DNA of 64,000 nt from Isoetes taiwanensis. Taxonomy: Eukaryota > Streptophyta > Lycopodiopsida > Isoetales > Isoetaceae. The DNA lies in the NCBI GenBank assembly GCA_021234155.1, contig JAJEKV010000005.1:6739216-6803215 (forward strand). Reading direction: 5' to 3'. Below the pieces are notes generated by a model. The model worked only from the letters and a program-made list of their open reading frames with translations. It made no database searches and had not been told where the DNA came from. This document shows, piece by piece, positions 25,176 through 56,707 of this stretch (position 1 is its first letter; each line of letters opens with the position of its first letter). Made by a program: the position numbers and the translations under genes.

Positions 25176-25241
<66 letters not shown>

Positions 25242-25476: not shown

Positions 25477-25512
<36 letters not shown>

Positions 25513-25694: not shown

Positions 25695-25735
<41 letters not shown>

Positions 25736-26422: not shown

Positions 26423-26455
<33 letters not shown>

Positions 26456-26493
26456 GAAGAGGAGAGAGAGAGAAGAGAGAGAGGAGAGAAGAG

Positions 26494-26533
<40 letters not shown>

Positions 26534-27185
26534 GAGAGAGAGGAGAAGAGAGGAGAAGAAGAGAGGGAAGAGAGAGGAAGAGAGAGAAAAGAGAGAGGAG
26601 AGAGAGAGGAGAGAGAAGAGAGAAGAGAGGAGAGAGGGGAGAGAGAAAGAGAGAGAGGAGAAAGAGAGAGAGAGAAAAGAGAGGAGAGGAGGGAAGGGCA
26701 CAAGAGAAGAGAGAGAGAAGAGAGAGGAGAGAAAAGAGAGAGGAGAGAGAGAGAGAGAGGAGAGAGAGAGAAAGGGGAAGAGAGAGAGAGAGAGGGGAGA
26801 TAGAGAAAGAGGAGAGAGAGAAGAGAGAGAGAAGGGAGAAAGAGAGAGAGAGGGAAGAGAGAGGAGAGAGAGAGAAGAGAGAGGAGGAGAGGAGAGAGAG
26901 GGAGGAAGAGAGGAGAGAGAGAGAGGAGAGAGAGAAGAGGGAGAAAGAAAGAGAGGAGAGAGAGAGAGAGAGAGAGAGAGGAGAAATAGAGAGAGAGGGA
27001 GAGAAGGAGGAAAGAAAGAGAGGAGAGAGAAGAGAGAAGGAGGAGGGAGAGAGAGAGGAGAGGAAGAAAGGAGAGAAGAGAGAGGGAAGAGAGAGAGAGA
27101 GAGGAGAGAGAAGAGAGAGAGGAGAAGAGAGAGGGAGAGAGAGAGGGGAAATGAGGCAGAGGAGAAAGGAGAAGAGAGAGGAGAG

Positions 27186-27228
<43 letters not shown>

Positions 27229-27570
27229 AGAGAGAGAGAGAAGAGAGGAGAGAAAGAGAGGGAGAGGAAAAGAAAAGAGAAGAGAAGTAGAAGAGAGAAG
27301 AGAGAGGAGGAGAAAGAGAGAGAGGAGAGAGGAGAGAAAAGAGAGACGAGGAAGGAGAGAGGAGACAAGGAACCCAAGGAGAAGAGAGAGAGAGAGAGAG
27401 GGAAGAGATAGGAGAGAGAGAGGAGAGACCGAGGGAGAGGAGAGAAAGGGGCCGAGAGAGAGAAGAGGAGCAAGAGAAAGAGGTCAGAAGGCCAAAAAAA
27501 GAGGGGAGAAGAGAGAGAAAGATGAGAGGAGAGAGAAGAGAGAGAGAGAAAGGAAGAGAGAAGAGAGGAG
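25110..27570 (+). repeat. GA-rich polypurine tract, about 2.5 kb
   Basis: Nearly pure purine on plus, dominated by short gagagagagg words, with perfect (GA)n near 25190-25238 and a few C-containing breaks (26401-26410, 27367-27378). No gene. Confidence 0.9.
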
Positions 27571-27910
27571 ATTATAAAAAAAATATCCGAAACGAATGTA
27601 ACTCCACCCCCATCTACGCCAGAATGGAGCCACTTGGCGCGGATCCTGACGGGCCCTAACGAGACAGAGGAGACGCTGCCACGGCGATCCCAGTGCCCTC
27701 CCCCTTTTCCAACCACTATCTAAAATTTTATGTTGCATGGTGGATTCAACCCAAGACTAGCCCCCCTACCCCAATCTCTAACCACTAAGCCAAGCATTTC
27801 TTCTTCAACAAAATAGGAAGTCCATGCTTAGTTGGGAGGACAATGGAAATTCCTTTGGTTAATTAAAAGCCCTGATGATCCCAGAAACTTCTTTGAATGT
27901 TCTAGAAACG
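27571..27910 (+). mobile_element. Helitron 5' domain, type I, decayed
   Basis: Shares gaatgtaactccaccccca and ttttatgttgcatggtgg with the domain at 5321. The TC start is lost. A reversed tRNA-like module with a one-base-deleted B box lies at about 27741-27797. A three-unit HSE is at 27895-27907, right before the GA tract. Confidence 0.6.
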
Positions 27911-28122
27911 AAGCCAGAGAGGAGAAGAGGGAAGGATAGAGGGGAGAAAGAGAGGAGAGAGAGAGGAGAGAGAGGAGAGAGAGAAGAGAGAGGAGAGAGA
28001 AGAGAGAGAGAAATAGAAAGAAGAGAGAAAGGTAGAGAGAGGGGAGAAATAGAGAGATAGGAGGGAGAGAGAAGGAAAAAGGGAGAGAGGAGGAGAGAGG
28101 AGAGAGGAGGAGGAGGGAGGAG

Positions 28123-28155
<33 letters not shown>

Positions 28156-28315
28156 AGAGAGAGAAGAGAGAGAAAGAGAGAGGAGGAGAGAGAGAGAGGA
28201 GAAGAAGAGAGAAGAGAGAGAAGAGAGATAAGAGAGAGAGAGAGAGAAGAGGGAAAAGGGAGAGGGAAGAGAGAGGAGAGAGAGAGAAAGATAGAGATAG
28301 GAGAGAGAGAGAGAT

Positions 28316-28347
<32 letters not shown>

Positions 28348-29929
28348 GAGAGGAGAGAGAGAGAAGAGAGAGGAAAGAGAGAGAAGAGAGGAGAGGGAGG
28401 AGACAGAGAGGAGAGAGAGATAAGAGAGGAGAGAGAGGAGAGAGAGAAGAGCACGAGGAGAGAGAAGAGAGAAAAGGAGAGGAGGAAGAGGGAGAGAAGA
28501 GAGGAGGAGAGAAAAGGGAGGAGAGGAGAAAAGATAGAGGAGAGAGGAGGGAGAGGGAGGAGAGAGGAAGAGAGAAGAAGAAGGGAGAAGAGAGAGGAAA
28601 GAGAGAGCAAGAGAGAGAGGAGAGAGGTGAGAAGAGAGAGGAGGAGAGAGAGGGAGAAAGAAGAGAGAGGAGAGAGAAAAGAGAGGAGAGAGAGGAGAGA
28701 AGAGAGAAGAGAGAAAGAAGAGATATGAGAGAGAAAGATAGGAAAGGAAGAGAGAAAAGAGAAGAGAGAGAGAGAGAGGAAAGAAGAGAGAGGAGAGAGA
28801 AAAAAGGAAAGAAAGAGAGGAGAGGAGAGAGAGAGAGGAGAGAGAGAAAAGAGGAGGAGAGAGAGAGGGAAGGAGGAAAAAGACAGAGGAGAGAGAAGAG
28901 AGGGAGAGAGAGAGGAGGGAGAAGAAGGGAGATGAGATAGAGAGAGGAGAGAGGAGATAGGGGAGAGAAGAGATAGGGGAGGAGAGAGAGAAGAGAGAGA
29001 GAAAGAGGGGGAGAGGGGGAAAGAAGAGGGAGGAGAGAGAGAGGAGAAAGAAGAGAGGGAGGAGAGAGAGAGAAGGAAGATGGAAGAGAGAGGAGAGAGA
29101 GAGAGGGGAGAAAGAAGAGAGAGGAGAGAAAGAGGAGAAAGAAGAGAGGGAGGAGAGAGAGAGAAAGAAGATGGAAGAGAGAGGAGAGAGAGGGGAAAGA
29201 AGAGAGAGGAGAGAGAAAGAGAGGAGAGAAAAGAGAGAGGAGGGGAAGAGAGAAAGGAGAGAGGAACCTTCTAAGGAAGGTTCGAGGCCGAGCCGAGGGA
29301 ATAGTCCCAAGGATGTCCAAACAGAAGAGAAGGGGACGAGAGAGATCAAAGGCTGAGAGCCGAGGACGGGTGCAAAGGGAGAAGGGAGAGAGAGAGATAG
29401 GGGAGGGAGAGAGAGAGAGAGAGAAGAGAGAAGAGTGAGAGGAGGGAGAAGAGAGAAGAGAGAGAGAGATAGAGGGAGATGAGAGAAGAGAGAAGAGAGA
29501 GGAGAAAGGAGAGAGGAAGAGATAGGAGAGAGAAGAGAGAAAAAGAGAGAGGAGATGGAGAGAGGGCACGAGTGAGCCCAAAAAGGAGATAGAGGGAAGG
29601 GCCCAGGAGAGCCGAGGAAAGGAGCAAAAAGAAAGAGAGAGAGACAAAGGGAGAGGGGAGAGAGAGAAGAGAGAGAGAAACAAAGAGAGAGGAGAGAGAG
29701 AAAGGGGAGAAAAAAGAGGGAGAGAGAAGAGAGACACTGGGAGAGGGTAGAGAGAGAAGAGAGAGAGAGAGAAACAAAGAGAGAGGAGGAAGAAGAGAGA
29801 GGAGGAGCAGAGAGGAGAGAAGAAGAGAAAAGAGAGAAAGGAGAGAGGAAAGAGAGAGAGAGAATTGAGAGGAGAAGAGATGGAGGGAGAGAGAAGACAT
29901 AGGAGAGAGAAGAGAGAGGGGAGAGAGAG

Positions 29930-29967
<38 letters not shown>

Positions 29968-30130
29968 AGAGAACAGCCCATCTCGAAGAGGATGCCTTAG
30001 AGAGGAGAGAGAAGAGAAATTGAGAGACACAAGAGATAGAAAGAGAGAGAAAAGAGGAGAGAAACTTTACAGTCTAGGGAGAGAGGAGAGAGAGAGGGAA
30101 GGAGGAGAGAGAGGAGAGAGATGAGGGTGA
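27910..30130 (+). repeat. GA-rich polypurine tract, about 2.2 kb
   Basis: Purine tract on plus. At 29265-29370 and 29560-29630 pieces of the 3' module appear (GAGGCCGAGCCGAGG, then gaggaaaggagcaaaaag), so more than one element core is merged here. Confidence 0.9.
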
Positions 30131-30935
30131 GAAGGGCCTCAAGGGAGTGTTAAAAGGGTCCAAATTTGTTGGTGCCGAATAGAATTAAAAGAGGTCGCCC
30201 CAGAACCTGAGAGAATACTACAAGAGAAGAAGGGCATTGGTAAATGGAATAGAGAGAGATTTTGAGAGAAGAGGAAAGGGAAGAGGAAGAGAAGAGAGGA
30301 GAGAGAAGATAGAAAGAGAGAGGAAAAGAAAAGAGAGAGAAAGAGAGAGAGAGGGAGAAAAAGAGAGAGAGAGAGGAGGAGGAGGGAGAACAGGAGAGAG
30401 AGAAAGGGATAAGGAAGAGAGAGAGAGAGAGAGGGAAAGAGGAGAGAGGAGAGAGAGGAGAGAGGAGAGAGGTAAAAGACAAAGAGAAGACAGAGGAGGG
30501 AGAAAGAGAGGAGAGAGGACAGAGAGAGAGGAGAGGAGAGAGAAGAGAAAAGAGAGGAGAGGAGGAGAGAGAAACTTGAGAGAGGGATAGAGAGAAGAGA
30601 AAAAGAGAGAGAAAAGGAGATGAGGGAAGAGAGGAGAGGAGAGAGAGAGAGAGAGAAGAGAGAGAAGAGAGAGAAAAGAGGGGGCAATAGGGAGGGAAAA
30701 AGGAGAGAGAGGAGAGAGAAGGAGAGAAATGGAGGAAAGAGAGAAAGGAAACCAGAGGGAAAAGAGGAGACTAAAAAGAGAAGAGGAGAAAAAGATTTTT
30801 GGTTTAGACTTGAAAGAAGAAAATCCCAGAGGAAAAGGAAAAAAAAGAAAGTCCATGAAGACTAGCAATGGAAAAAGGTTAAAATAGAAAGAAGATGATC
30901 CTAGAACCTTCTAGAATGTTCTAGAATGAAGCTAG
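30130..30935 (+). repeat. Mixed 3'-module remnant, GA tract and HSE border
   Basis: 30140-30240 holds a decayed 3' module (gggtccaaat, atactacaagagaagaaggg). 30250-30790 is purine tract. 30800-30900 is a degraded 5' domain. A perfect five-unit HSE (GAA/TTC with two-base gaps) lies at 30904-30926 before the next tract. Confidence 0.6.
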
Positions 30936-32580
30936 AGAGAGAAGAGGGAAAGATAAAGGGGAGAAGAGAGAAGAGAGAGGAGGGAGAAGAGGGGAGAGAG
31001 AGAGAGAGGAATAGAAGAGAGAGAGAAAGATAGAGAGAGAGGGGAGAAATAGAGAGAGAGGAGAGAGATAAGAGAGAGAGAAGGAAAAAGGGAAGAGAGA
31101 GAAAGGAGAGAGTAGAGAGAAGAGAGGAGAGAAAAGAGGAGAGAGGAGAGGAGAGGGAGGGAGGAGAGAGAGAAGATAGAGAGAGAGGAGAGAAAAGAGA
31201 GAGGGAAGAGATAGGGGAGAGAGAGGGGGAAAGAAGAGAGAGAGAGAAGGAGATGAGAGAGACAGAAAGGAGAGAGAGAGAAGAGAGAAAGAGAGAGAAA
31301 GAGAGGAGAAAAAGGAAATAGAGGAGGAGATAGGGAGGAGAGGAGGAGGAGGGAGTTTGAGGGGGAGAGGAGAGAAATAGGGAAATAGAACAAAAAAGAA
31401 AATAGAGAAAAGAGGGGAGGGAGGAGAGAGAGAGAGGAGATACAGGAGGTCCAGAGAAGAGAGATAAAAAGAGAGGGAAGAGACGGGATTGATACATAGG
31501 AACGAAAGAAGGCAAAGAGAGGTTTGATGAGACAAAATTTTTGGAAGAGAGAGAGACTTGAACCTCACAGAGAAGGAAAAAAGGGGAGAGGAGAGACCAG
31601 AGGTAGAAAGAATGGGATCGGATGAGAGATAGGGATGGGCAATGGAAAACAATTTTAATTAAGAAGAGGGGGGAGAGAAAAGAACCAAAAGAAGAGAGAA
31701 AAGAGAGGGAAGAAGAGGGAGGAGAGAGAGAGAGGGGGGAAAGAAGAGAGAGGGAGAAGAGAGAGGGAAGATTTGGAAAAGAGAGAGAAAGATAAGAGAG
31801 ATGAAAGGCAAAAGAGAAAAGTTCTTTAGAGAGATAGAGATGTTACCTTAGGGAGAGAGAAGGAAAAGGAGAGAGAGGAGGAGAGAGGGGAGAGAGAAAG
31901 AGAGGAGAGGAGATGGAGAGAGAGAGAGAGAGGAGAGAGGAGGAGAGAGAGAGAGGAGAGAGGAGAGAGAGAGAGAGAGAGAGAGAGGAAGAGAGATAAG
32001 AGAGAGAGGAGAGAAGAGAGAGGAGGAAAGGAGAGAAAACATAGAGAGGGGAGAGACAGAGAGAAAGGGGGGAGAAAAAGAGAGAGAGAAGAGAGAGGAG
32101 AAAGAGAGAGAGAGAGAGAGAGGAGAAAGAGAAGAGGAGAGGAGAGAGGATTTAGAGGAGAGAGAGAAGAGAGAGGAGAGAGAAAGAAGAGAGAGAAGAG
32201 AGAGGAGAGAAGAGAGAAAGGAGAGGGAAGAGAGGAGAGAAAGGAAAGGAGAGAGGAGAGAGGAGAGAGGAGAAGAGGAGAGAAGAGAAGAAGGAGAGAG
32301 GGAGAGAAGAGAGAGGAGAGAAATAGAGAAGAAAGGAAAGGAGGAGAGAGAAAGGAGAGAGAGGAGGGAGAGAGAGGAGAGAGAGAGAAGAGAGAGGAGA
32401 GAGGAGAGAGGAGAGAGAAAGGGGAGAAAGGGGAGGGTCCAGAGAAGAGAGAGAGAAGATAGAGAGAAGAGAGGAGGAGAGAAAAGAGGGAGAGAGAGAG
32501 AGAGAGGGAGAGGAGAAAAAAGGGAAAGAGAAGAAGAGATAGGGGAGGATAAAGACCTTCCAGTAGGGGAGAAGGAGGAG

Positions 32581-32615
<35 letters not shown>

Positions 32616-32740
32616 ATACTGCATACTGTGGAGAGGGACAGAGAGAAGAGAGCAGAAAGAGAGAGGAGAGAGGAGAGAGGGCAGGAGGAGAGGAGAGAGA
32701 GAAAGAGGAGAGTGGCAGAGAGAGATAAGCACGCGGGTGG
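30935..32740 (+). repeat. GA-rich tract with embedded Helitron-domain mosaic
   Basis: Purine tract except at about 31495-31680. There strings from the type II 5' domain (gacaaaatttttgg, acttgaacct, gggcaatgga, ttaattaag) alternate with GA-rich filler where other copies have C-rich or unique sequence. A well-kept copy of the internal 90-100 bp module lies at about 31008-31090. Confidence 0.75.
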
Positions 32741-34202: not shown

Positions 34203-34505
34203 TGGAAAGAAGAGAGAGAGGAGAGAGGAGGAGAGATGTGAGGATGTAAGAAAGAGAGAGGGGGAAGAGACATGGGAGAGAGAGGGGGAAAGAAAGAGAG
34301 AGAAGAGAGAAGGGGATGAAAAGAGAGAGGGGAAAGGAAGAGAGGAGGAGAGAGCAAAGAGAAGAGAGAGAAAAGGAGAGGAGGGAAGAAAGAGGAGAGA
34401 GAAGAGAGGAGGGAGAGAGGGAGAGAGAATAGAAAAAGAGAGAAAGATAGAGAGAGAGGGGAGAAATGGAGGAAAAGAGAGAGATAGGAGGGAGAGCAGG
34501 AAAAA

Positions 34506-34553
<48 letters not shown>

Positions 34554-35406
34554 AAGACAAAAGAGAGGTGAAGAGAGATGAGAGAGAAAGAGGGAGAGAG
34601 GAGAAGAGAGAGAGAGAGAGAGAGGAGAGAGAGACAAAGAGAGAGTAGAGGGAGGGAGAGAGAGAGGAGAGGAGGAGAGAGAAGAGAGGGAAGGGAGAGG
34701 GGAGAGAGAGGGGAAAAAAAGGAGAGGGGAGGGAGAGAGAAGAGAGAGAGGGAGAGGGAGGAGAGCAAAGAGCTTAGGAGAGAGAGGAGAGAGAAGAGAG
34801 AAAGGGGAGAGGGAGGAGAGAGGAGAGAGAGAGGAAAAAGGCTAAAATGGGTGGCTTTGATAATGACCAAAGTCCCAATGTTCTTAAACAGGCAGGTCTC
34901 CCATGCCTAGAAAGGGAAAAGAAGAGAGAGGAGAGAGAGAGAGAGGAGAGAGAAAGGAGAGAGAGAAGGAGAGGGGAAGAGAGAGGAGAGAGAAGGAGAG
35001 AGGAGGGAGAAAGAGAGAGAAGAGAGGGAGAGAGAGGAGAGAGAGAAGAAGAAAAAGAAGAGAGACATGGGAAGAGACATTTTAGTTTAATTTATAAAGA
35101 GAGACTACCAGCCCTATAAAACAAAAGATTATTTTAGAGAGAATTTCTCACTGAGGAGAGAGAGAGGAGGAAGAGGAAAGAGACAAGCAGGAGAGGGGAG
35201 AGAGAGCAAGGAGAGGGAGCCAGAGAGACAGAGGAGGAGAGAGGAGAGGAGAGAGGGAGAGAGAGAAGAGAGAAAGGACAGAGGAAAGAAGAGAGGAAGA
35301 GGAGGAGAGAGGAGAGGAAAGAGGAAGATAGAGGAGGGAGGAAGAGAGGAGAGAGGAGAGAGAGGAAAGAAGAGAGAGGAGAGAGATGAGAGAGAGAGGA
35401 GAGAGA

Positions 35407-35440
<34 letters not shown>

Positions 35441-35790
35441 GAGGAACAGAGAGAGGGGAGAAATAGAGAGAGAGGAGAGAGGAAAGTGGAGAGAGAGAGA
35501 GGAGTAGGAGAAGAGAGGGAAGAGAGACAAAGAAAAGAGGAGAGAGAGAGAGGAGAGAGAGAGAAGAGAGGAGAGAGAGAGGAAGAGAGGAGAGAGAAAG
35601 GAGAGGGACAAAAGAGAGAGAGGAGAGAAGAGAGGGATGGAGGAAGGAGGGATGAGAGAGGGAAGAGAGAGAGAGAGATAGAGAGAGAGAGGGAGAGAGA
35701 GAAGAGAGGAGAGATAGGAGAGAGGAAGATGAAGGGGAGACAGAGAGAAACGACCGAGAAAGTTTGAGCCTACAGCGGGAGAGAGAGGGC
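34203..35790 (+). repeat. GA-rich polypurine tracts
   Basis: Two purine tracts on plus (34203-34840 and 34915-35065, then 35150-35790) with short unique spacers at 34840-34915 and 35070-35150. The internal module is present at about 34425-34505 and 35455-35490. No gene. Confidence 0.88.
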
Positions 35791-41780: not shown

Positions 41781-42024
41781 GCAGTTAGATGCTATGGGCA
41801 AAGTGTGAGTATGTTACTATGAATGATACTTTGGTTGGTACCGAAATAGAAAGTTGAGCAAGATGTGTGAATAATACTTTCTGGAGGTGATAAGGTCCTC
41901 CAGATTGGAAGAAAGGGATGTGAGTTCCCATTTGAAAGATCCTCATAGGTGATACTTGGAATTGGGGTCCCTTTTGATGATAGAGGACTCATGAAATGAT
42001 AGCCAGGCAGTTGGTAATGGATAG

Positions 42025-43030
42025 AGAGAGGGAGGGAGAGAGAGAGGAGAGCATAGAGGAGAGGGAAGAGAGAGAAGACGAGAGAGAAGAGACATGGGGA
42101 GGGAAAAGAAGAGAGAGGAGGAGAGAAGAGAGGGAGGAGCATCAAAGAGAGAGAGAGGAAAGAAGATAGGAGGAGAGGAGAGAGAGAGGGGAAAGAAGAG
42201 AGAGAAGAGAGAGAGGAGGAGGGAGAAGAGAGATGAGAGAAGAGGAGAGAGAGAGAGGAGAAGAGAGAGAGGAGAAAGGAGAAAAAAGAGAGAGAGAAAG
42301 AGAGAGAGAGAGGGAGAGAGAAAAAGAGAGAAGAGAGAGAAGGGGAGAGAAGGAAAAAGAGAGGAGAGAGAAGAGAGAGAGAAGAGTCTTTATAAAGAGA
42401 GAGAGAGAGAGAGAGAAAAGAGAGAGAGAGAGGAAAAGAGAGAGAGAGAGAGAGGAAAGACAATAAGAGCAGGAGAAGAGAAAGAGAGAGAAGCGAGAGA
42501 GAGAGAGAAAGAGAGACAAAGAGAGAGAGGAGAAAAAGAGAGAGGAAAGAGAGAGAGGAGGAAGAGAAAGAGAGGAAAGAGAGAGGGAGAAGAGAGAGAG
42601 AAGAGAGAGAGGAGGAAGAGAAGAGAGGGGAGAGAAAGAAAGGGAGAAGAGAGAGAGAGAGAGAGGAGAGAGAAGAGAGAAGAGAGATGATAGAGAAACG
42701 TAGGAGATGGAGAGAGGAGAGGGGAGAAGGGTGGGAGATAAAAGAGTGAGAGAAGAGAGAGATGAGAGAGGGAAGAGAGAGAAGAGAGTTCGAAGAGAGA
42801 GGGAGGAGAGAGAAGAGAGAGAAAATAGAGAAGAGATAAGGGATTGGAGAGAGAAGAGAGAGAGAGAAGATAGAGGAGAGAGAGAGAGGAAGAGAGAAAG
42901 AGAAAAAGAGAGAGAGAAAGAAAAAGAGAAAGAGGAGAGAGAGAGAGAGAATAGAGAGAGAGAATAGAGAGAAGAGAGAAGAGAGAAGAGAGAGAATAGA
43001 GAGTAGAGAGAGAAGGGGAGAGAGAGAGGA
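42025..43030 (+). repeat. GA-rich polypurine tract, about 1 kb
   Basis: Purines on plus with only isolated pyrimidines. Starts after a unique stretch and leads into a 3' module. Confidence 0.88.
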
Positions 43031-43037
43031 GAGAGAG

Positions 43038-43440
43038 ATGCTACAAAAGGGAAATGGGGTCCAAATCGAGGCGAGGCCGAGGAGAAGAGAGGAATACTAG
43101 AAAAAGAAGGGCATGGGTGGGAGAAGATAGAATCATAGATAATTACCAAGGGCATGTGAAGAGAAAAAGAGAGAGAAGAAAAAGAAAGTCGCCCGCCATC
43201 GAAAGCCCTTTCTAGTCTAATATAATAAAAATAGAGAGAAGAGAGAAGAGAGAAGAGAGAGAATAGAGAAATAGATCCAACTCAAAAAGCTCCCAAGTTT
43301 GGTGAACAAAATTGCTACAAACCCGGGAAATGGACTTGAAAATCGACAAGGCAAACCCCACCCCTTACCACTACAGTCAAGCAAAAATTTCTTGAAAAAA
43401 TGGAAGTTCACATATAGTTAAGAGTGAGGCCCAAATAATT
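43038..43440 (+). mobile_element. Helitron 3' end, junction and type II 5' domain
   Basis: gatgctacaaaagggaaatg, ggggtccaaatcgaggcgag and atactagaaaaagaagggca mark the 3' module. CTAG ends at 43215 and TCTAATATAATAAAA starts at 43216. The 5' domain is short and GA-invaded, with a decayed reversed tRNA-like module at about 43333-43385. Confidence 0.65.
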
Positions 43441-44324: not shown

Positions 44325-44879
44325 GAGAGAAGCACCCAAGAGAGGAAAAAGAGAGAGAGAAACAGAGAGAATGCTCAAAATAGAAAATTCCGAGATACTT
44401 TGAAGAGAGCAAGGTGAAAAATGATAGGAGGAGAGAGAGGAGAGGAGAACTTTTAGGGAGAAGACAGAGAGAGTAGAGAGACCTGGGGATGGGTGAGAGA
44501 GAGAGAGGAGGAGAAGAGAGGGAAGAAGAGAGAGAGAGAGAGAGGAGAAGGAGAGAGAGAAGAGAGAGAAGAGAGAAGAGAGAGGAGAGAGAGGAGGAGA
44601 GAAGGAGATGAGAGAGAGAGAGATGAGAGAGGGAGGAGAGAGAAGAGAGAGGGAGGAGAGAGAAAAGAGAGAAGAGAGAGGAAAGGAGGAGAGAGAAGAG
44701 AGAAGAGGAGAGAGAGAGAGAGGAAAGAGAGAGGAGAGAGGAGAGAGAGAAGAGAGGAAAGAGAGAGAAGGAGAGAAGAAGAGGAGGGAGAGAGGAGAGA
44801 AGAGATGAGAGAGAGAAGAGAGAGAGAAGAGAAGGAAGAGAGAGAGAGAGAGAAGAGAGAGGAGAGAAGAGGAGAGAGA

Positions 44880-44910
<31 letters not shown>

Positions 44911-44981
44911 GAGGAGAAGAGAGAGGAGAGAGAGGAGAGAGAGAGAAGAGAGGAAAGAGAGAGAAGGAGAAGAAGGAGAGG

Positions 44982-45012
<31 letters not shown>

Positions 45013-45616
45013 GAAGGAGGGAGAGAAGAGAGAAGAGAGATGAAGAGAAGAGGGAGAGGAGAGAGAGAGGAGAGAGAGAGAAGAGAAAGAGATAGAGAAG
45101 AGAGAAGAGAGAGGAAAGGAGAGAGAGAAAGGAGAGAGAGAGAGAAAGAGAGATGAGAGAGAGGGAGGAGAGAGAGTTTTCAAAAAGAAAAAGAGAGAAG
45201 AAAGGGGAGGAAAGAGAATAGAGAGCAGAGAGAGGGGAGAAGGGGAGGAGAGAGAAGAGAGAGGAGAGAGGGAGGAGAGGGGGAAGAGAGGGAAGAGAGA
45301 GAAGAGAGTTCAAGAGAGAGAGGAGAGAGAGAGAAGAGAGAGAAAAAGAGAAAAGAGAGAAGGAAGATTGGGAGAGAGAGAAGATAGAGGAGAGAGAGCG
45401 GAGAGAGCGAGAAGAGAAAAGAGAGAGAGGAAAGAGAAAAGAAAGAATAGAGAGAGAGAGAGAATAGAGAGAAAGAGAGAGAGAGAGAGAGAAGAGAGAG
45501 AATAGAGAGTAGAGAGAGAAGGAGAGAGAGAGAAGAGAAAGGAAAAGAGAAAAGAGTTAAGGGGAGAGAGAGCCAGGCCGAGAGAGGAGAGAAGAGGAGA
45601 GAGAGGAAAGAGGAGA

Positions 45617-45647
<31 letters not shown>

Positions 45648-45865
45648 GAGAGAGAGGAGAGAGGAGAGAGAGGAGAGAGAAGAGAAGAAGAAAAGAAGAG
45701 AAAGGAGAAAGAAGAGAGAGAAAAGAGGAGATAGAGAAGAGAGGACAGAAAAGAGGAGAGAGAGGGGAGAGAGGAGACAGAGAGGAGAGGAGAGAGAAAG
45801 AGAAAAGAGAGAGAGGAGAGAGAGAGAATAGAGGGAAGAGAGAGGAGAGAGAGAGAGAGAGAGAA

Positions 45866-45950
<85 letters not shown>
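44325..45950 (+). repeat. GA-rich polypurine tract, about 1.6 kb
   Basis: Purine tract on plus with a long perfect (GA)n run at about 45872-45947. It is followed at 45950-46060 by a damaged 3' module (AGGCCGAGCCGAGGAAAGG) without CTAG. Confidence 0.9.
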
Positions 45951-46084: not shown

Positions 46085-48601
46085 AGAGATAGTTCAAAAC
46101 GCAAACCTTTCTAGAACCTAGCAAGAAGGTGGTTTACGTTTTGGAGGCCCTCTCCTTGTCGGGATTTTGGCCGGAGAAAGAGAAAAGGACTTGACATGGA
46201 GTGGGGGTGTTGACGGAAGAGCATGGAGAAAAAGAAAGAGAGAGGAAAAGAGAGGGACTTCCTCTCCCCAAGGCCCCGGGATCTGACGAGAGAGGGAAAG
46301 AGAATCGCGATTTAGCTCGCCAATGGAGAGATATCGAGACCCCGGGGACCAAGTTCCTGCGGAGAAGACCAGAGACCTCCAAGAAGCGCCAACGAAGCTC
46401 ACTTCCCATCACACTCAGAGTCAATTGGCCTAGGAGTCAAGAACTTTGCAAAACCAACCTTGTAACTTGCTCCCTAGGGTAATTTCGCCATTCCCGACGA
46501 TTTGGCAGTGGTCGATTTGCCATTCCCGAGCCTCCCGGTGTCCGAACGACAAAACACTACGGTTTATACAAGGCCGACCTCAGGGACCCCGGGTTTGACA
46601 AGTTCTCCGGACCGATCTGGAATCTTTTGGGCCTTCCCAAGAGGGGCCCCCGAACGGAGGATCCAACGGTCGGATAGGGATCCGGGCCCGGAGGGTGGTC
46701 ACAGCAGGCCCCCTGGGGAGCGCCAGAAGGGTCTGCCGGGAACTTTTTGGATCCCGCCCCACGGGTCCCAGGACTCTCCCTCTTGTGAGGGATCCCCGCA
46801 AGGTCCTGGCCTCATTTGACTTGGGAAGGGTGCCAGCTCGGTTGTTCCGCAGAACGGGCTACCCCACCATTCTAATGCTAACCCTTTGACCTAGACCTTC
46901 TCCTAAAAATTTTGAAAATTGGGTGTGTGGCCGGAGATGAATTAGGAATCCAAACCGGCAAAAAATCAGAATTTATTTTCGCACAATGCATTAATTGCGA
47001 ATTTATGAATGTCTTGCCACCGCAAAGCGCCATCGGGAGGAGGACAGCCCAAACTCCGGCCCGCCGGGCCTTCCCCTTGCTCGTATTCTGGGCCGTAGCT
47101 TTCTGGCCAGGTCCCTGCGTAACAGACAAGTCTCGGCCCTCAAAACGCAAACCTTTCTAGAACCTAGCAACTCACAGGGTTTACGTTTTGGAGGCCCTCT
47201 CCTTGTCAGATTCGGCCGGGACCTTGCGCCGTGACTTGACGTGGAGTGGGGGTGTTGACGCCAGAGCACGGACCCTAAAATCCCCCCGAAGCTGCTTGCC
47301 CCGAATTTCCTCTCCCCAAGGCCCTGGGGACGGACGGGCAACCTCCCCTCTCCGGAATCGCGATTTGGCTTTGCCAATGGACTCAGAACATCGACATTGC
47401 CCTGGGGACCAAGTTCCGTGGCCAGAAGACCACCCGACCTCCAAGAAGCGCCAACGTAGTTCACTTCCATCACACTCGTAGTCAATTGGCCTAGGATGTG
47501 GATGCGGGATACTGTCGTGGAGGGCGTGAGTGTTTCTTTCTTTGGCAAAACCGACCTTGTAACTTGCTCCCTAGGGTAATTTCACCATTCCGAACGATTT
47601 GGCAGGGTCGATTTGCCATTCCGGAGCCTCCCCGGTGCCCGAACGACAAAACACTACGGTTTATACAAGGCCGACCTCAGGACACCCCGCGGTTTGACAA
47701 GTTCTCCCGGACCGATCTGGAATCTTTTGGGCCTTCCCGAAGAGGGGCCCCTGAACGGAGGATCCAACGGTCGGATAGGGGAACCGGGCTCCGGGAGGGT
47801 GGTCATTAGCTTGCAGCCCCCTGGGGGAGCGCTGCCAGGAAGGGCTGCCTCGGGAACTTTTTTGGATCCCGCCTCTTGGGGTCCGGACTCTCCCCTCTTG
47901 TGAGGGATCCCTGCAAGGTCCTGGCCTCATTTGACCTGGGGAAGGGTGCCAGCTCGGTTGCCCTGCAACGGGCTGCCCCGACCGTTCTAATGCTAACCCT
48001 TTGACCTAGACCTTCTCCAAAAATTTTGAAAATTGGGTTGTGTGCTGGAGATGAATTAGGAATCTGTCTGGCAAAAAATCAGAATTTATTTTCGTACAAT
48101 ATGTCTTGCCACTGCAAAAGCGCCCCCCGACTTCTACTTGCCACATCGGGAGGAGGACAGGCCCAAACTCCGCTCCATCAGTTCCCCTTGCTCCGTATTC
48201 TCGGCTGCAGCTTCTCGGCCAGGTCCCAAGTGCAACAGACCAAGTCTCGGCCCTCAAAACGCAAACCCTTCTAGAACCTGGCAACCCACAGGGTTTACGT
48301 TTTGGAGGCCCTCTCCTTCTCAGATTCGGCCGGGACCTTGTGCCGTGACTTGACGTGGAGTGGGGGTGTTGATGCCAGAGCACGGACCCTAAAATCCCCC
48401 AGAAGCTGCTTGCCCCGAATTTCCTCTCCCCAAGGCCCTGGGGACGGACGGGTGACCTCCCCTCTCCGGAATCGTGATTTGGCTCTGCGAATGGACTCAG
48501 AACGTCGACATTGCCCTGGGGACCAAATTCTGTGGCCAGAAGACCACCCGACCTTCAAGAAGCGCCAAAGTAGCTCACTTCCATCACACTCGTAGTCAAT
48601 T
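46085..48601 (+). repeat. Tandem satellite, unit about 1.1 kb, left part
   Basis: Marker gaacctagcaa/gaacctggcaa and its flanks recur at about 46110, 47160 and 48275. Units run 46095-47138, 47139-48254 and from 48255 until the transposon at 48602. They include a block with ccctgggga, a block with gcgggatactgtcgtgg and a block with ccctagggtaattt. No frame is conserved between units, so I do not see a gene. The first unit is GA-invaded at 46165-46360. Family not recognised. Confidence 0.8.
48598..48601. repeat. Target-site duplication AATT, left
   Basis: AATT stands before the left TIR and again after the right TIR (55600-55603). The unoccupied neighbouring satellite unit has one AATT at 47484-47487 in the same context (tagtc-AATT-ggcctagg). 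Confidence 0.8.
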
Positions 48602-48961
48602 GGGTGTAAATTCTATACTGGTGTACAAAAAGCACTGTCCGGACATGTGCTTTATATGCTGAAAGCGCTTAGTACCTCCTTAGTCGTGTGAAGTCCAACT
48701 GAATTAAAACAGAATTGGCATGCACCAAGAATAGTATATGCAATTCCGGAATGGCAGGGATCAGTGACTAGGATCTCCAAAGACGCGGGAACTCCGTTGG
48801 CGGGGAGGATGGTTGGAGTTTCCTTTAGTGGTTGGCGGGAGAAATCAGAATTCGGAATTGCAATTAGAGAATTGCAATACCAATTCATACAATTCGAACA
48901 AATTTTGCATTGTTTCAATTGAATTTTCAATTTGGAATTGTAATTCGAGTCGTGAATTTCA

Positions 48962-51900
48962 ATGGAAAGCTCCCGAAAAGCATCGATTCAACTAGAAGAA
49001 GGATTTTCTTGCAAATTCAAGCTGAAAATAGAAGAAAATCCCGAAAGAAAGGGAAGAGAGAGAGAGAAGGAAAACAATCCTCCTTCCAATACCAAAGATT
49101 GTGGTGTTTTGAGGAAAGATGATTACAGGAATTGTCGAAGAATTTGGAAGATTATTTCAATGAAATTACAAATACTTTTGCCTCGAATGTGGACAAAGGG
49201 AAGTTAGCATCGAGATTCTTCAAGAAGATTAAACATCTTCCACTCGATGTTGATGTAGCAGATCCAAAGAAAATGCCCTTATGAGGGATTTAATTTTGAA
49301 TATGAAAGAGACTTTTCAAGCTCAAAAATATTATAGAAATACTGATGTTCTTCAAGCAAAAAGGAGTACACTGCAAATGGCTGCATCTTCAACAAAGGGA
49401 GTGAATCAATCAGCAATAGCAACTTCTATCTATTCCAAGAAGAACTGTGGCAAGAGCATTTCAGAGACGTGTGTATGCAGAATTTGAAGCAGGTCCCTGG
49501 TCAATGTTTCAGAGGAGAAAAAGGTCTGATGCACTTTCGGATGATGAAGCAAGAGGGTAAGATAAAGAATTTTGGGATGAGAATACTAGGATCTCACCAT
49601 ATAAAAACATGTGAGAAAACATGTTAGTGAAACAGTGAAAAGATTGACCATCCTATTCATTTCTTTGGAGGTGACACAAGTAAGCACATTCTCTCTTTTT
49701 TTTTTTTCTCAGATTTTGCATGATATTGTTCTTTGAACTGTGTTATGATCGGGTTGCGCTTTTATCTTCAATTCAGGAAAGAGTATCCCGAGATCAATAT
49801 ATGCCCAGCAAACCTTTGAGAAGCTTAAACCAAGCTATATTAGGAGATTGCAAGAAAGAGAGACTTGTCACGCCAAGCATTACCACATGCACCTTGATTT
49901 TGTTATGCAGGCAATTAATAACATGAGGTCTGATCCTTATGGTGTGCACAAAGATTGCAAATGCGAATGCAGGGTATGTGGTCCAGGTCCAACATCCAAT
50001 GCTAAGCACAATATTTTCAAATCTACAAGTGAGTATTGGAGAAATGTGGTATGCCCCAAAGTAGAAGCAGATGAATGGCACAAACATGCATGTTTGATGC
50101 AGACCTGCAAGAAATGTGGTCTCAAGAGGTAAGTTATTAACATAGCTCATATATATTGTTTAACTTTTCATTTCTATGATATCTAGATAACATATGTCAT
50201 ATACATTGTTTTACTTTTCATTTCTATGATATCTAGCTTCAATATTATCTTACAGTACTTTCTCTATTCCACTTTATACAGGATTCCAAAGTGTCCAAGG
50301 GAAACAAGTAAATCATTAGAACACCTGATGGATTGGAAAGTTTTTGAAAAAGTTAGTGTTGAGATTGTGTTAGAAGGATGACGTCATTTATACTAATTTG
50401 TTGATTCTACTGCTTGCAGCAAGAAGCTGTTTCTAAGAGAAACCCTAAGAAGAAACCAACTAAAGTTACAAGATTGGCCTACAAGACTGGTACCCCTTTT
50501 GAATTTCAGGAACATGCAAGAAAAACAATGGCAGCATTTGTGCCACACAACTACAAGGCTCATTGGCAAGCAAAACAATTCAGACAATGTTTGGCAAGTT
50601 TTGGAGAAGACACAATAGTTTCTGTAATTGACTTTGCAGAAAACTATGGTTTCAAAGTTCAGTAGGAAGCGCAATCATGTCATTGGCACACTGACCAGGT
50701 ATCCATTTTAGTTCATATCACTTACAGGTTTGGAAGGAAACAACAGGTGGATGGCAATGACATCAAGAAGAAAAGAAAAGATATGAAGCAAAAAGACGAT
50801 AACAGAGAAATTATAAAAGAGTGTCACTTCTATATTTCAGATGAGAAGTCTCATGACACTGAATTTGTACAGCATTGCCTCTTAAAACATGCCACTTTAT
50901 TGGAGTTAAATGGTATTCAATATTCCAAGCATTATGTATGGTCAGATGGTTGTTCATCTCAATTTAAGTTTGCAAGACCATTCTATTTCTTGGGTAGATG
51001 GTACAGAGATCTTGGGAAGGAGATTATTTGGAATTTCTTTGCCAGCTCGCATGGAAAAGGTGAGCATGATGGCCAAGGAGCAGTGGTAAAAAGATTTCTC
51101 ACAAAGGAACAACCGGCAAGATAATGGGAGAAAACTCCAGCAGGCCGCAGATGTCGCTCGATTTCTAAATGAATTCTTTACCAACAGCTCATCGATTCGA
51201 TATACACGGTGTAAGCACTCGTGACTTGTAGCACTTGAAGCACTTAGACCTGTATTTTAGTCTAATTATTGTTCATGATTTTTATGTATGTTTGGTGATA
51301 CTTTACTAGTTTTATACATGTTGAAGGCCATTTATGTATAAATATAACATTTTGAACTTTTTTTTTGTTATTGGAATGTTTACTTACCTTGCATAACAAG
51401 ATTACAAAGACTTTACAAAGCTAGCTTAAGCACTTACAACACTTGATTAATTGTTGCCTGCAGGTACTTTTGGGAAATTGACCCTCATAGTATAGATAGA
51501 TCAGAAAGGTATGATGCTCAGACCCTCAAAAGGACAACTAAAATTCATTGCATCAGGCCTTTTGATAGAGAAAATTCTTTGAAGCTTGCACATAGACCTT
51601 TGTCATGTTTTTGCATGTCTTGCCAGCAAGGGAAATGGGACTCCTATAGCACTAAATCTCGTATAGGAGGTTGGGAGACAAATGAGTTGGTCCCAAAAAG
51701 AGCAGAACTGCAGGAAATTCCTGACAATGAGGTTGTGTCTGAAGACGAGGAGACTGATAGTGAAGATGATGGTGACCATGATCTGATCAGCTCTAATGTA
51801 GAAGTAGGGGACAATTTTGCAGTGAATGCAGAAGAAGGCAATGCTGAGGGTGTAGACTTTTATGTCCTGAAATGTATTGAGACAAAGAACACATTACTAG

Positions 51901-52142
51901 ATGATTATGAAGATGGCTGGGGCAATGTTTTTGGAATTGGTGAGGTCATACTTTCTGGCTACTATTACAAACAATTGGAAGGAGAATTAAGTTTTCAACT
52001 TCTTTTAGACAAACCACTGGCCACAGTGTACAGCCACCTCGTTAGGATTTGCAAATTTGACATGACTTTGGTGAAAGACAACCTGTATAGTATGGATGAG
52101 CAGACATGCCAACAAATAATGAGCAGCCTGCCTTCAAGTTGA
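48962..52142 (+). pseudogene. DDE-like transposase gene, five exons, disrupted
   Basis: Exons with matching GT-AG phases: about 48962-49679, 49777-50128, 50282-50351, 50420-51208 and 51464-52142. Exon 1 has frameshifts (near 49120, 49270 and 49440). Exon 2 holds TFEKLKPSYIRRLQERETCH and a Cys-rich, probably zinc-binding stretch CKCECRVCG...CLMQTCKKCG. Exon 4 has the catalytic-type motifs VIDFAENYGF (Asp codon 50630-50632), SDGCSSQFK (about 50942-50968) and FFASSHGKGEHDGQGAVVKR (about 51035-51095). These are typical of a widespread, poorly described transposase-derived family of plants, cnidarians and insects. A TAG at 50663-50665 and a frameshift near 51120 break exon 4. Exon 5 has RYFWEIDPHS, an acidic patch EDEETDSEDDGD and a 226-residue tail. 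It presumably acted on the TIRs. The 5' start is uncertain. Confidence 0.75.
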
Positions 52143-52309
52143 TAACAGTTTCTAATCATCAATTGTGCAAAGAAGATAAAAATATTCATTGATAACTTAA
52201 TAAGTATATCCAGATCCAAAGGATATATCAAAATGTATACAAAATTGGCCAGCCTACATGAACAACAAAAATGGCTGGCTGTCAGTTGACTATTTACAAT
52301 GTGTTTCAC

Positions 52310-54607
52310 CTAACTATTTACAAATTGTTTCAGGTGTTGCAAGGCAGAATTGTTGATGAACTTGCTATCTGCCTGTTCAGTCAGCCACTTCACAAATGTA
52401 GAGTAATAGAGATCAAAAGAAACCTGCTGAGGAACTGTTAACATTGCTGCATCCAACCTCTCAAGAATTTCCACGGCCTCCATATCAAAGAAATCCACAA
52501 GTTGTATTCTCTTCAATAATGTCTTCCAGTTATCATCCATTGCAAGTTGATACAACAATGGAAAAATGGAATCCACTAGCAAACTTGAACTTGACTTAAA
52601 TTCTTCAATCCTCATGCTTGCTGCAATAACAGTTGTATAAGGTGGAGACAAGAATGTTTTATAAACTGAGTCATCAACCAAAATACATCTTTCAGTGTAT
52701 TGAGGAAACTGGCTATACACCTTTTCCAAAGGTTTCATGAACACTGGTTTGTCAACATGTCCAGGTAACGTGAAAGGCATTTTGTCACAAAACTCTTGTC
52801 CCCAAATAAAAACAAACCTGTGTATAAGTAATGGACACAACTTCTGTAACACCTCCTTTGTATTGAAACCAGTCATAGATGACCATATAGCCAAGTCATA
52901 GTAAACACTTACCTTGTTTAAAAATTCTGTAACACCAGGCCTGAATAGAACTATCTTGTTTTTTGTATACTCTATAATGTGTGGGCCAGGTATTTCAAGT
53001 TTTTAAGACTTTGAATATGTTTTGACCAAAACACCATTGAGGTCCATAATCAATAGCTTTCTACTCACCATGATATCTCTGCTATGTGCTGCTTTACTTG
53101 TTGAACCTGCTGGCTCAACACTTGCTGGCTCAACACTTGCTGGCAAACTTGCTGGCTCAACACTTGTTTCAAATGTCTTGGCAACTGTATCAACACAATG
53201 TTGAACCATTGTTGGCTGTACTATATTTGCCTCTGAAACTATCTTTTGTGGAACAAAAGCTGGCTGAACACTTGTTTCAAATGTCTCAACTATATTTGGC
53301 TCAACTATAGTTGGTGGAACTATAGTTTCACTCTCCTTTTCTGCTCTCCTTTTCTTCACTTTATTGATGATGTTTGATTTTTCTTTTTCATTATCCAATT
53401 TGTTTGAATTTCGTGCAGACCTACATTAGAACAAAACAAATTCAAACAACCATTGCAAAGCAATTTAAATTTTTTTTATTAATAACACTCAAATGGCTAC
53501 AATGAACACTCAAATACCTTCTAATGGCTACAACACTGCCTTTCATTGATATGGAATTATCTCCAATTGTCCCTGCATGGAATCAAGGCCAGCTAATTTT
53601 CATGTAACAGACTCTTGATTGAGACAGAATCATTTTTGTCATTCAGAGCATCGTATAGCTTGAAATAGAATACCTTCTTTTGGAGTTGGACCCTGATCTT
53701 CTACTTCAACAGCAACAGTGGCAGCAGATTGACCTGTGGTGATGATGCTTTCCCAAGTAGCAGCATTATTAAGTGCTACAAGTGCTTCATCTGTTGTTTG
53801 CTGCAACTCTAAACTTGTATTCTCATCAGCCTCTAATGCATCTTTCAGATTCTTCTTGCTTCTGAATGGATAAGTCCTCTTAGGTGCTTCTCCTTTCCTG
53901 CTTGCTTTATCTTTGCTTTTCTGTTTCTTTGGAACCTGCACTTTTAATTTGGGTGAAAATTTCCTTTTCTTCGAATGTTCCTTCACCACTTCTATCTCTG
54001 TGTCACTCTCTTGATGTGACTCTGAATTTCCTTTCCCCTCAACAACCTTCCCATCATCTGTTAGTATAACATTATCTGTAGCAGTTTCACCCTCATCATC
54101 TGTTAGTATAACATTATTTGCTCCAATCTTATAAGGAGATCTTGAAGTTGAGGGTAGCAGAGCAAGATTTCCAAAAGGTGATATCCTATCATGTACAATG
54201 GAAGGTGATCCTGTATTTTCAAGCACTGTCTCGTCCACAGGCACTGTCATACCAAGCTCTAAAAATAAAGCAGAACTGATAGATGAAGTGCAAACAATGC
54301 ATTTACCTTTAGCCAACAAAGCTGTGCACATTAAGTGATACTCATGATCACATTTTGGTTTTACTGATAACTTGTAATTGCTGGAGAATGCTAATCCACA
54401 TGCAGCACAAGCGTCCTCAAATAGCACAGATAAGTCTCTACTAACTGCATTGACTCTAATTGGTGAAAATTTCATACCTTTCAGTTCTTCCAAGTTTTTG
54501 AGGTTTGATCTCAGTATTGAGAGGTTAGCATCCTTCATGTGAAGTTCACCTTGCAATTCATCCCTTCTTGATCTTGGTTTGGATTGACCTTCCCCGTAAC
54601 TTGCCAT
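52310..54607 (-). pseudogene. RING-H2 finger fused to FCP/NIF-like HAD phosphatase, one in-frame stop
   Basis: Three exons joined by GT-AG introns in phase: 54607-53674, 53572-53518 and 53420-52310, giving 699 codons plus stop. Residues 67-106 are a RING-H2 finger (C67, C70, C86, H88, H91, C94, C103, C106), the E3 ubiquitin-ligase fold. Residues about 210-250 are Lys/Arg-rich (KKRKFSPK, PKKQKSK), a likely nuclear signal. A repetitive Val/Glu/Pro linker follows, then the phosphatase: motif I LLIMDLNGVLV, RPGVTEFLNK, LAIWSSMTGFNT, DKPVFMKPL and CILVDDSVYK, in the order of FCP1/NIF-type HAD enzymes. Motif I has Asn where the second catalytic Asp is usual, as in some plant relatives. TAA at 53003-53005 interrupts the frame just after motif I; coding resumes in the same frame. 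Without it the protein would be full length. I know of no standard transposon gene with this layout. Confidence 0.75.
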
Positions 54608-55122
54608 TTTTTTTTTGCTGCATAGGTCTCAAGCATAATACTTGTTTCAAGCTCAAGAATGTCTTTTTCTAAACTCGAGTTACCCGCAAAGATTTTTGAG
54701 TTCTAATTCTTTTTTCATTTGCTCAATATTATTGTTTGCTTCTCGCCACATTGCCACTTAAAGCCTGGTTTGAGAGATCCTCTCACGCCAATGTGACAAG
54801 GATGTCATTCAACTCCAATGCACAAGCTTCTCTCTCACTAGAAATTCTCGGTGATCTCATTCTCGACGTGGGGTTCTATATTCTCAGACAATTTTTGTGC
54901 TCAAAATAAAAGATTCCACCGCCAACTTCTTTTCCTCTTGAGCTTCTACCGTCTTCTTTCTCAGTATTTTTTGGTTCCAATGATTCGGGCTTCCTACACC
55001 TCCCCAGATTTCATAATTTGAGCTCTCAGAAACCTAATTTACCTTGTGCTTTTCAGATTTTTTTGTGCAGATATGCAATTTTCCCATGCAAAAGCATAGG
55101 CTATCTGCTTTTCTCGACCTCA

Positions 55123-55353
55123 TTATTGCATAATCCCCTCACCGATAAAGCTTTTTATCAATGTTTGTAATTGTTCTTTCGGATGTGGGGCTGTACCGGT
55201 AGATTTTTTATATCGTGGTCCGAATTTATCTCCTCTCCAAACCGATAGACAATCTTCTTTGGTGATTTTTTTCTCCAAATATTTCATTTTTAGAGCCGGA
55301 ATTAGTCCATCATCCGACAATCCATGCATTTCCACAAAATCTTTCATCATCAC
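55123..55353 (-). CDS. Small basic hypothetical frame inside the transposon
   Basis: Seventy-six codons from the ATG at 55353, or longer if an upstream start or exon exists, since the frame stays open through KWKASKWRS. It is rich in Lys and contains DFVEMHGLSDDGLIPALKMKYL and a WRGDKFGPRYKK stretch. No family recognised. It lies upstream of, and on the same strand as, the RING-phosphatase gene, so it could be a 5' exon or a third, independent gene. The stop at 55123 argues against it being spliced unchanged. Confidence 0.3.
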   Translation of the reverse strand: MMMKDFVEMHGLSDDGLIPALKMKYLEKKITKEDCLSVWRGDKFGPRYKKSTGTAPHPKEQLQTLIKSFIGEGIMQ

Positions 55354-55388
55354 GCTTCGCCATTTCGATGCTTTCCATTTGGCTTTCG

Positions 55389-55498
55389 GTATGGCTATGG
55401 CGCGAGAAAATCCCAGACTAAAAGCTATGGCTATGGCGCGAGAAAGTTCGACTAAAAGCTATGGCTTATGGCTATGGCGTACGGTTATGGCGCGGGAA
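55389..55498. repeat. Subterminal repeats of the TIR transposon
   Basis: The string atggctatggcgcgagaaa occurs twice in full, followed by two shortened variants, separated by gactaaaagct. Subterminal repeats often serve as transposase-binding sites; that role is inferred. The left subterminal region (48840-48985) is instead rich in GAATT/AATTC words. Confidence 0.6.
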
Positions 55499-55603
55499 CT
55501 GCCAGCATTAATTGCGTGACACAAGGCTGACGGGATCCAAGTGCTTTAGGTGCTGGGTGCTGTCGCGTTTTTTTTATCACCAGTATAGAATTTACACCCA
55601 ATT

Positions 55604-56690
55604 GGCCTAGGATGTGGATGCGGGATACTGTCGTGGAGGGCGTGAGTGTTTCTTTCTTTTGCAAAACCGACCTTGTAACTTGCTCCCTAGGGTAATTTCG
55701 CCATTCCGGACGATTTGGCAGGGTCGATTTGCCATTCCGGAGCCTCCCCGGTGCCCGAACGACAAAACACTGCGGTTTATACAAGGCCGACCTCACAGGA
55801 CGCCCCGCGGTTTGACAAGTTCTCCCGGACCGATCTGGAATCTTTTGGGCCTTCCCGAAGAGGGGCCCCTGAACGGAGGATCCAACGGTCGGATAGGGGA
55901 ACCAGCTCGGGAGGGTGGTCATTAGTGTCGCGACCCCGGGAGCACCGCCGGGGAAGGGCTGCCTCGGGAACTTTTTTGGATCCCGCCTCTTGGGGTCCGG
56001 ACTCTCCCCTCTTGTGAGGGATCCCTGCAAGGTCCTGGCCTCGTTTGACTTGGGGAAGGGTGCCAGCTCGGTTGCCCTGCAACGGGCTGCCCCGACCGTT
56101 CTAATGCTAACCCTTTGACCTAGACTTTCTCCAAAAATTTCGAAAATTGGGCTGTGTGCTGGAGATGAATTAGGAATCCAGCTGGCAAAAAATCAGAATT
56201 TATTTTCGTACAATGCATTAATTGCGAATTTATGAATGTTTTGCCATCGCAAAAGCCCTCGACTTCTATTTGCCACATCGGGAGGAGGACATGCCCAAAC
56301 TCCGCTCCGTCGGTTCCCTTGCTCCGTATTCTCGGCTGCAGCTTCTCGGCTAGGTCCCAAGTGCAACAGACCAAGCCTCGACCCTCAAAACGCAAACCCT
56401 TCTAGAACCTGGCAACTCACAGGGTTTACGTTTCGGAGGCTCTCTCCTTGTCAGATTTGGCCGGGACCTTGCGCCGTGACTTGATGTGGAGTGGGGGTGT
56501 TGACGCCAGAGCACGGACCCTAAAATCCCCTCGAAAACTGCTTGCCCCGAATTTCCTCTCCCCAAGGCCCTGGGGACGGACGGGCGAGCTCCCCTCCCCG
56601 GAACTGCGATTCGTCTCTGCCAATGGACTCAGGACGTCGACATTGCCCTGGGGAGCAAGTTCCGTGGCCAGAAGACCACACATGTTCACC
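55604..56690 (+). repeat. Tandem satellite, unit about 1.1 kb, right part
   Basis: Continues the interrupted third unit exactly where the transposon left it (ggcctaggatgtgg) to about 56384, giving a unit of about 1128 bp without the insert. A partial fourth unit runs to about 56690, where it breaks into the CpG-rich repeat. No gene. Confidence 0.8.
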
Positions 56691-56707
56691 CAACTAAGAA
56701 ATGAGTT

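Follow-up and report, generated by a model that had tools for sequence, protein, structure and literature searches.

A Sola-like transposon group of Isoetes taiwanensis with a second gene predicted to combine a RING-H2-type finger and a phosphatase-like NIF domain

The 64,000-nt stretch of an Isoetes taiwanensis contig analyzed here (the window) harbors a structurally complete transposon of 6998 bp at positions 48602-55599, which carries a transposase gene and a second gene, gene 2, on the opposite strand. The 22-bp terminal inverted repeats (TIRs) are identical at both ends and have no further match in the window at up to five substitutions. A 600-base join of the flanks, made of 300 bases from each side with a single AATT, aligned end to end with a neighboring copy of the host repeat at 96.3% identity with one gap opening. 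This neighboring copy is the empty site, and it follows that both TIRs belong to one insertion; an origin of the TIRs from two different insertions was ruled out by the empty site and the target-site duplication (TSD). An earlier note on this DNA had described a complete element with identical 22-bp TIRs and an AATT duplication, a description that is borne out by the exact repeats, the TSD and the empty site. The insertion target is a host tandem repeat with a unit of ~1.1 kb that occupies window positions of about 46100-48601 and 55600-56700. The element has the following parts.

48598..48601, no strand: target-site duplication AATT, left copy (sequence, empty-site alignment)
48602..48623, + strand: left terminal inverted repeat, 22 bp (exact repeat, genome TIR counts)
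48962..49679, + strand: transposase exon 1, in a gene that is broken in the window copy (homology to the L023 exon)
49760..50128, + strand: transposase exon 2 (homology to L023)
50282..50351, + strand: transposase exon 3 (homology to L023)
50420..51209, + strand: transposase exon 4, which holds the three conserved Asp (D452, D557 and D598 of the 870-residue L023 model)
51464..52142, + strand: transposase exon 5 with stop
52310..53420, - strand: gene 2 exon 3, linker and NIF (FCP/SCP-type HAD) domain with motif I D-x-N
53518..53572, - strand: gene 2 mini-exon, 55 nt, which allows in-frame linkage of the RING and NIF exons
53674..55363, - strand: gene 2 exon 1, N-terminal region, coiled-coil-like stretch and RING-H2-type finger (about 54300-54420); broken in the window copy
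55578..55599, - strand: right terminal inverted repeat, 22 bp
55600..55603, no strand: target-site duplication AATT, right copy (sequence, empty-site alignment)

Both genes look intron-bearing and the exon models place them convergently, in agreement with the earlier note. Gene 2 exceeds its two long open stretches, reaching upstream to about 55363 with three exons in the model. A gene limited to the two open stretches was ruled out; from the RING on, three exons are present in the window family (F1) and four in two diverged families, F3 and F8. The window copy is coding-broken. Its transposase exons carry 13 frame-changing indels relative to L023, which served as the coding reference for the transposase and the NIF exon. 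Gene 2 exon 1 and the mini-exon together carry 19 relative to L017, the reference for these two parts, and the NIF exon carries none relative to L023. The L023 transposase was modeled with five exons that are open throughout and encode 870 residues. In gene 2, L017 exon 1 has 590 open codons, including a short tail past the first splice donor, and the NIF exons of L023 and L038 (F8) have 394 and 348 open codons, respectively. None of 14 F1 copies, the window copy and 13 others, has gene 2 open in every exon under the three-exon model.

All comparisons of copies and families were made within one genome of 1,658,258,908 bases in 1110 contigs. With the 5' kilobase of the F1 element as query, the best 40 of 407 first-look candidates were scored. 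Copies other than that in the window were 92-97% identical where the match spans most of the query, and 20 copies were fetched from the scored matches. Both TIRs (up to three edits) were found within 9 kb in 13/20, and 11 of these 13 both-ended copies had perfect 4-bp TSDs of varied sequence, the other two having one mismatch. Gene 2 sequence was seen in 14 of the fetched copies. In the remaining six, similarity did not extend beyond the transposase half in the part examined; at least two of these copies are apparently interrupted, with the far TIR and the NIF exon further off. Among the matches listed, a NIF match lay 2.0-11.5 kb downstream of 28/40 scored 5' ends and none was listed for the other 12. 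The TIR itself, with at most one mismatch, occurred at 186 sites in the genome, as compared to 0 for a reversed control pattern. Examination of 100 of these sites gave 20 facing pairs less than 30 kb apart. They span 6.4-28 kb, none of them short, and 19 of the 20 enclose a NIF match.

The gene pair also occurs outside F1. The NIF exon as genome query (best 105 of 5,306 candidates scored) additionally listed five loci at about 40% identity. One of these, L029, is an element of a second family, F2, with TSD AATG, a length of 7331 bp and both genes in the same convergent arrangement as in F1. Its main transposase matches to F1 are 53-67% identical, and the RING and NIF exons 38.5% and 38.6%. Two more of the five, L030 and L031, have both genes but lack one or both ends in the sequence examined. 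The transposase group is extremely expanded in the genome: two queries returned 10,404 and 9,147 first-look candidates. The best 144 of the former, obtained with an F2 transposase exon, and the best 150 of the latter were scored, and the F2 exon matches fell into several identity clusters. From four further clusters six loci, L032-L037, were chosen by transposase to represent families F3-F6. Gene 2 was convergent with the transposase in five of the six (L032-L035 and L037), with most of the NIF domain lost in L034. It was not found in L036, which carries an F6 transposase and is neighbored by an element with a seventh, more distant gene 2 relative, F7 (L036 positions 5830-6847, + strand; finger with CVLCGL..CSHKWH). 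The F3 and F4 elements have TSDs TTTA and TTCT and lengths of 7079 and 6606 bp. Family F8, chosen from matches to PF03031, has both genes as well (L038). Ends or TIRs of F5, F6 and F8 were not found within the loci examined. L034 also holds a long open reading frame with a GPGGTGKT motif on its reverse complement (6710-8347, - strand), apparently adjoining a broken F6 element; we take it to resemble a Helitron helicase.

Counts over the larger match sets gave the same arrangement. A convergent NIF match lay within 8 kb of 28/144 scored transposase matches, with one pair in another arrangement and 0.15 in a shifted-position control. The PF03031 matches that were convergent with a transposase listed for the second query numbered 26 of 150, none among the top 50, which look host-like, and all 26 at ranks 51-150. 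Since only a small part of each candidate set was sampled, most matches for which no partner was listed are uninformative. Relatives were not found in viral contigs, prokaryote contigs or phages. The earlier note had proposed a genome search with the TIR and both proteins, with several two-gene copies expected for a gene that belongs to the element. The facing TIR pairs and the gene pair in F2-F6 and F8 answer to that expectation. Because the pair recurs across related families, gene 2 looks like a functional component of the transposon, and its presence in every family sampled supports, at the sequence level, a gene that belongs to the element and not a stray capture.

The transposase gave only a sub-threshold helix-turn-helix match in Pfam, near residues 140-170 of the L023 protein. 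Three Asp (D452, D557 and D598) lie within strongly conserved blocks. The Asp of DFAE, WSDG and HGKGEHDG are retained in F1-F3, F5, F6 and F8, and the F4 copy is broken at the second. These residues may form a catalytic DDD triad.

Gene 2 exon 1 contains a coiled-coil-like stretch, recognized by eye and through weak Pfam matches, followed by the finger. All eight zinc ligands of a RING-H2 (C-x2-C..C-x-H..H-x2-C..C-x2-C) are present in F1, F2, F3 and F8, and the fingers of F6 and F7 also have the eight ligands, the last pair being longer by one residue in F6 and by two in F7. The NIF domain scored over the Pfam cut-off, with E 1.1e-9 for the window exon and 3.6e-14 for the intact L023 exon; PF03031 scores were 53.2 bits in F1 and 72.4 bits in F8 against a cut-off of 21.8. 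In profile comparisons UBLCP1 was best (E 1.1e-8) with CTDNEP1 also close, and fold matches included CTDNEP1 and SCP (best E 5.2e-8) with TM-scores of about 0.5 or less. The structure of the SCP1 D98A mutant and TIM50 were among the matches.

The catalytic motif I of FCP/SCP enzymes is D-x-D-x-T/V, in which the second Asp is the general acid and is needed for SCP1 catalysis. In the element genes this motif reads D-x-N-G-V in all seven families read (F1-F6 and F8) and does not match the catalytic form. D-x-D was kept in 3/3 host NIF genes read. F1-F6 retain the first Asp of motif I as well as a WSSM-type motif II, the Lys of motif III and the Asp pair of motif IV. A RING-H2 finger fused to an FCP-like phosphatase, as claimed in the earlier note, thus held up in part: a RING-type finger and a NIF domain lie on one strand with intron phases that allow fusion in four families, and the term phosphatase is doubtful because the second motif-I Asp is Asn in seven families as opposed to Asp in the three host genes.

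The junction between RING and NIF can be spliced in frame in F1, F2, F3 and F8. Phase 1 at the first donor is followed by phase 2 in later introns, giving phases 1,2 in F1 and F2 and 1,2,2 in F3 and F8, which have one extra small exon. In F3 (L032 reverse complement, about 5400-5730, - strand) this extra mini-exon looks like a duplicate and keeps the phase. In L017, L023, L032 and L038 the joined frame, followed from 25 codons upstream of the donor as far as D-x-N-G, is uninterrupted. The F2 frame is open at and near the junction, with a separate break close by in each of the two copies. If the first donor is read through unspliced, a stop follows after a short tail in F1, F2 (L031), F3 and F8, and the F1-F3 tails are alike by eye.

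Selection was estimated from coding comparisons. Between F2 and F3, dN/dS (the ratio of nonsynonymous to synonymous substitution rates) was 0.15 for transposase exon 4, 0.25 for NIF and 0.21 for the RING exon; by this measure gene 2 is under purifying selection between these families. In the transposase tree as in the NIF tree, F2-F4 form one group and F5-F6 another; the two trees disagree inside F2-F4. Synonymous divergence between L032 (F3) and L029/L030 (F2) was 0.42 in the transposase exon and 1.1-1.2 in gene 2, with the F1 subfamilies differing in the same direction; this inequality gives a hint that families have exchanged halves of their elements. The NIF exon region of the F2 copies L029, L030 and L031 is 97.5-99.1% identical and their other long matches 89.9-96.5%, as if that region were conserved or converted.

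On balance we lean toward the following interpretation, with a confidence only somewhat better than even. The window element would belong to a large, old, Sola-like group with a 4-bp TSD, a putative DDD transposase, a possible N-terminal helix-turn-helix and a convergent accessory gene owned by the element. The accessory protein would consist, in order, of an N-terminal domain, a probable coiled coil through which it may dimerize, a RING-H2-type finger that could act as an E3 ubiquitin ligase, and an FCP/SCP-type HAD domain. Since the D-x-N motif favors phospho-binding over catalysis, the NIF domain may be a catalytically impaired module that binds phospho-Ser/Thr and selects the substrate. 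Possible substrates are the phosphorylated C-terminal domain (CTD) of RNA polymerase II (Pol II) or a phosphorylated silencing or repair protein, and the outcome might be that the element evades silencing or completes transposition. If the first RING-NIF intron stays unspliced, the product would be a RING-only protein ending in a short C-terminus of its own, and this could provide a two-product switch. A bolder version, which we consider unlikely though worth stating, envisages a transposon branch with its own substrate-directed ubiquitin ligase. Its RING E3 would be joined to a dead CTD-phosphatase fold that reads host phosphorylation, intron retention would toggle between RING-only and RING-NIF forms, and the group would have retained this gene throughout its existence, either as a defense against host silencing or as a link between transposition and transcription or the cell cycle.

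Several observations weigh against the accessory-ligase interpretation. All splicing, including the fusion of RING to NIF, is predicted. The RING match in F1 is below the Pfam cut-off (E 0.016) and the best zf-RING_2 score, in F8, reached 20.8 bits (E 4.7e-4) against a cut-off of 27.3. The finger of the F5 copy is without its third Cys and that of the F4 copy without its first. An AlphaFold2 (AF2) model of the NIF domain was poor (mean pLDDT 45.7), and a single-sequence fold of the F1 NIF exon gave a pLDDT of 37.8. Synonymous sites are saturated when NIF is compared between F1 and F2 or between F2 and F8. Within F1, comparison of the two subfamilies gave dN/dS values of 0.31 for the transposase, 0.59 for gene 2 exon 1 (0.33 ahead of the RING, 1.01 for the RING and what follows it) and 0.89 for the NIF exon (0.63 in the NIF part, 1.27 in the linker). 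The high gene 2 values indicate that constraint is weak or recently relaxed there, and recent constraint on the RING part in F1 is not shown by them. Finally, identity ranks of transposase and NIF correlated at 0.43 (p 0.11) and those of transposase and finger at 0.52 (p 0.049).

The same data were examined for other explanations. Gene 2 might be two genes on the same strand, one for a RING protein that terminates at the stop beyond the first donor and another for a NIF protein, which would make this a three-gene element. The short tails with stops past the donor in four families favor such a division, as does the 26-codon tail of F1 with only one change between subfamilies. In those four families, nevertheless, GT-AG introns with matching phases allow an open frame to run from RING into NIF, the additional mini-exon of F3 preserves the phase, and both forms may exist side by side by intron retention; we rate the division as rather improbable. 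An active phosphatase acting on the Pol II CTD or another host protein despite the motif-I Asn seems similarly doubtful to us. The retention of the other catalytic motifs in F1-F6 would fit activity, against which stand the Asn in every family read, the requirement for this Asp in SCP1 and the occurrence of the D98A mutant among the fold matches. A structural role in transposition, such as binding of subterminal DNA or of the transposition complex by a finger without a ubiquitin role, would be comparable to that of the second proteins of Harbinger or En/Spm elements. We regard it as unlikely, though not to be dismissed. It would agree with the position of gene 2 beside the transposase in each sampled family and in the co-location counts, and with the sub-threshold RING score. 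The eight-ligand pattern, found in F1, F2, F3, F6, F7 and F8, speaks against it; an eight-ligand RING together with a domain related to phospho-CTD phosphatases points to protein, not DNA, targets.

It is highly improbable that a single transposon lineage took up a host phosphatase gene in a one-off event, the alternative that the earlier note had left. Canonical host NIF genes, from which such a capture could draw, do exist in the genome. The pair nevertheless recurs in several families, with NIF domains 28-61% identical among F1-F6, it is convergent in all but one of the neighboring pairs counted, and the element genes read share D-x-N, which none of the three host genes read has. Capture by a single lineage was ruled out by gene 2 in F2-F6 and F8. 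The likely origin of the gene is one ancient capture that predates the separation of the families.

For many cut-and-paste transposons of eukaryotes, we know of nothing beyond a transposase and, at most, a helper that binds DNA. A gene for a RING and a phosphatase-like domain in every sampled family of one plant genome therefore suggests elements that act on host protein modification. The gene 2 product is a candidate for a transposon-encoded, host-manipulating protein from an early land-plant lineage, which is directly testable and for which thousands of candidate copies are available.

Elsewhere in the window, an imperfect purine (AG/GA) low-complexity array of 14.5 kb extends over positions 18155-32725, and further long purine arrays lie at 5726-8766, 34211-35724, 42023-43038 and 44495-45947.

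For classification, TSD length is informative. hAT elements produce 8-bp duplications and PIF/Harbinger elements 3-bp duplications. Those of Mutator and Tc1/mariner measure 7-12 bp and 2 bp, respectively (PMC10741241). The 4-bp TSD found here does not fit any of these four groups. In the same source, Sola elements are described with a DDD transposase, a 4-bp TSD, variable TIRs and lengths of mostly 2-9 kb, and with members in a moss (PMC10741241). The window element agrees with this description in TSD, TIRs and length and those of F2-F4 in TSD and length, and the three conserved Asp of the transposase can be set beside the Sola DDD (PMC10741241). The 4-bp TSD and the three Asp point to Sola, and the earlier note, which did not recognize the pairing from any described superfamily, was too strong on this point in view of the Sola description (PMC10741241). 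A RING-NIF second gene is not mentioned in the passages on Sola that were consulted (PMC10741241). Since the comparison was by description only, we call the element Sola-like, not Sola. A literature search, which did not cover Repbase records and most subscription papers, found no relevant paper on a RING or NIF second gene of transposons or on Isoetes together with Sola; a Sola second gene may therefore already have been described.

Two-gene plant transposons offer a further parallel. PIF/Harbinger, En/Spm and VANDAL-type Mutator elements, the last with the anti-silencing protein VANC, combine a transposase with a conserved accessory gene of their own, as does the group described here. They differ from it in the kind of accessory protein, with no RING-NIF fusion known to us among them, and in having TSDs of lengths other than 4 bp. 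In the P element, intron retention gives two products. A retained intron in gene 2 would similarly yield a shorter protein with its own C-terminus, but the switch would affect the accessory gene and not the transposase. The NIF domain of gene 2 resembles the FCP, SCP, UBLCP1 and CTDNEP1 phosphatases and TIM50 in sequence and fold matches, and differs from the FCP/SCP enzymes by the Asn in place of the second motif-I Asp in seven families. TIM50 is non-catalytic and may thus be a functional parallel for this domain.

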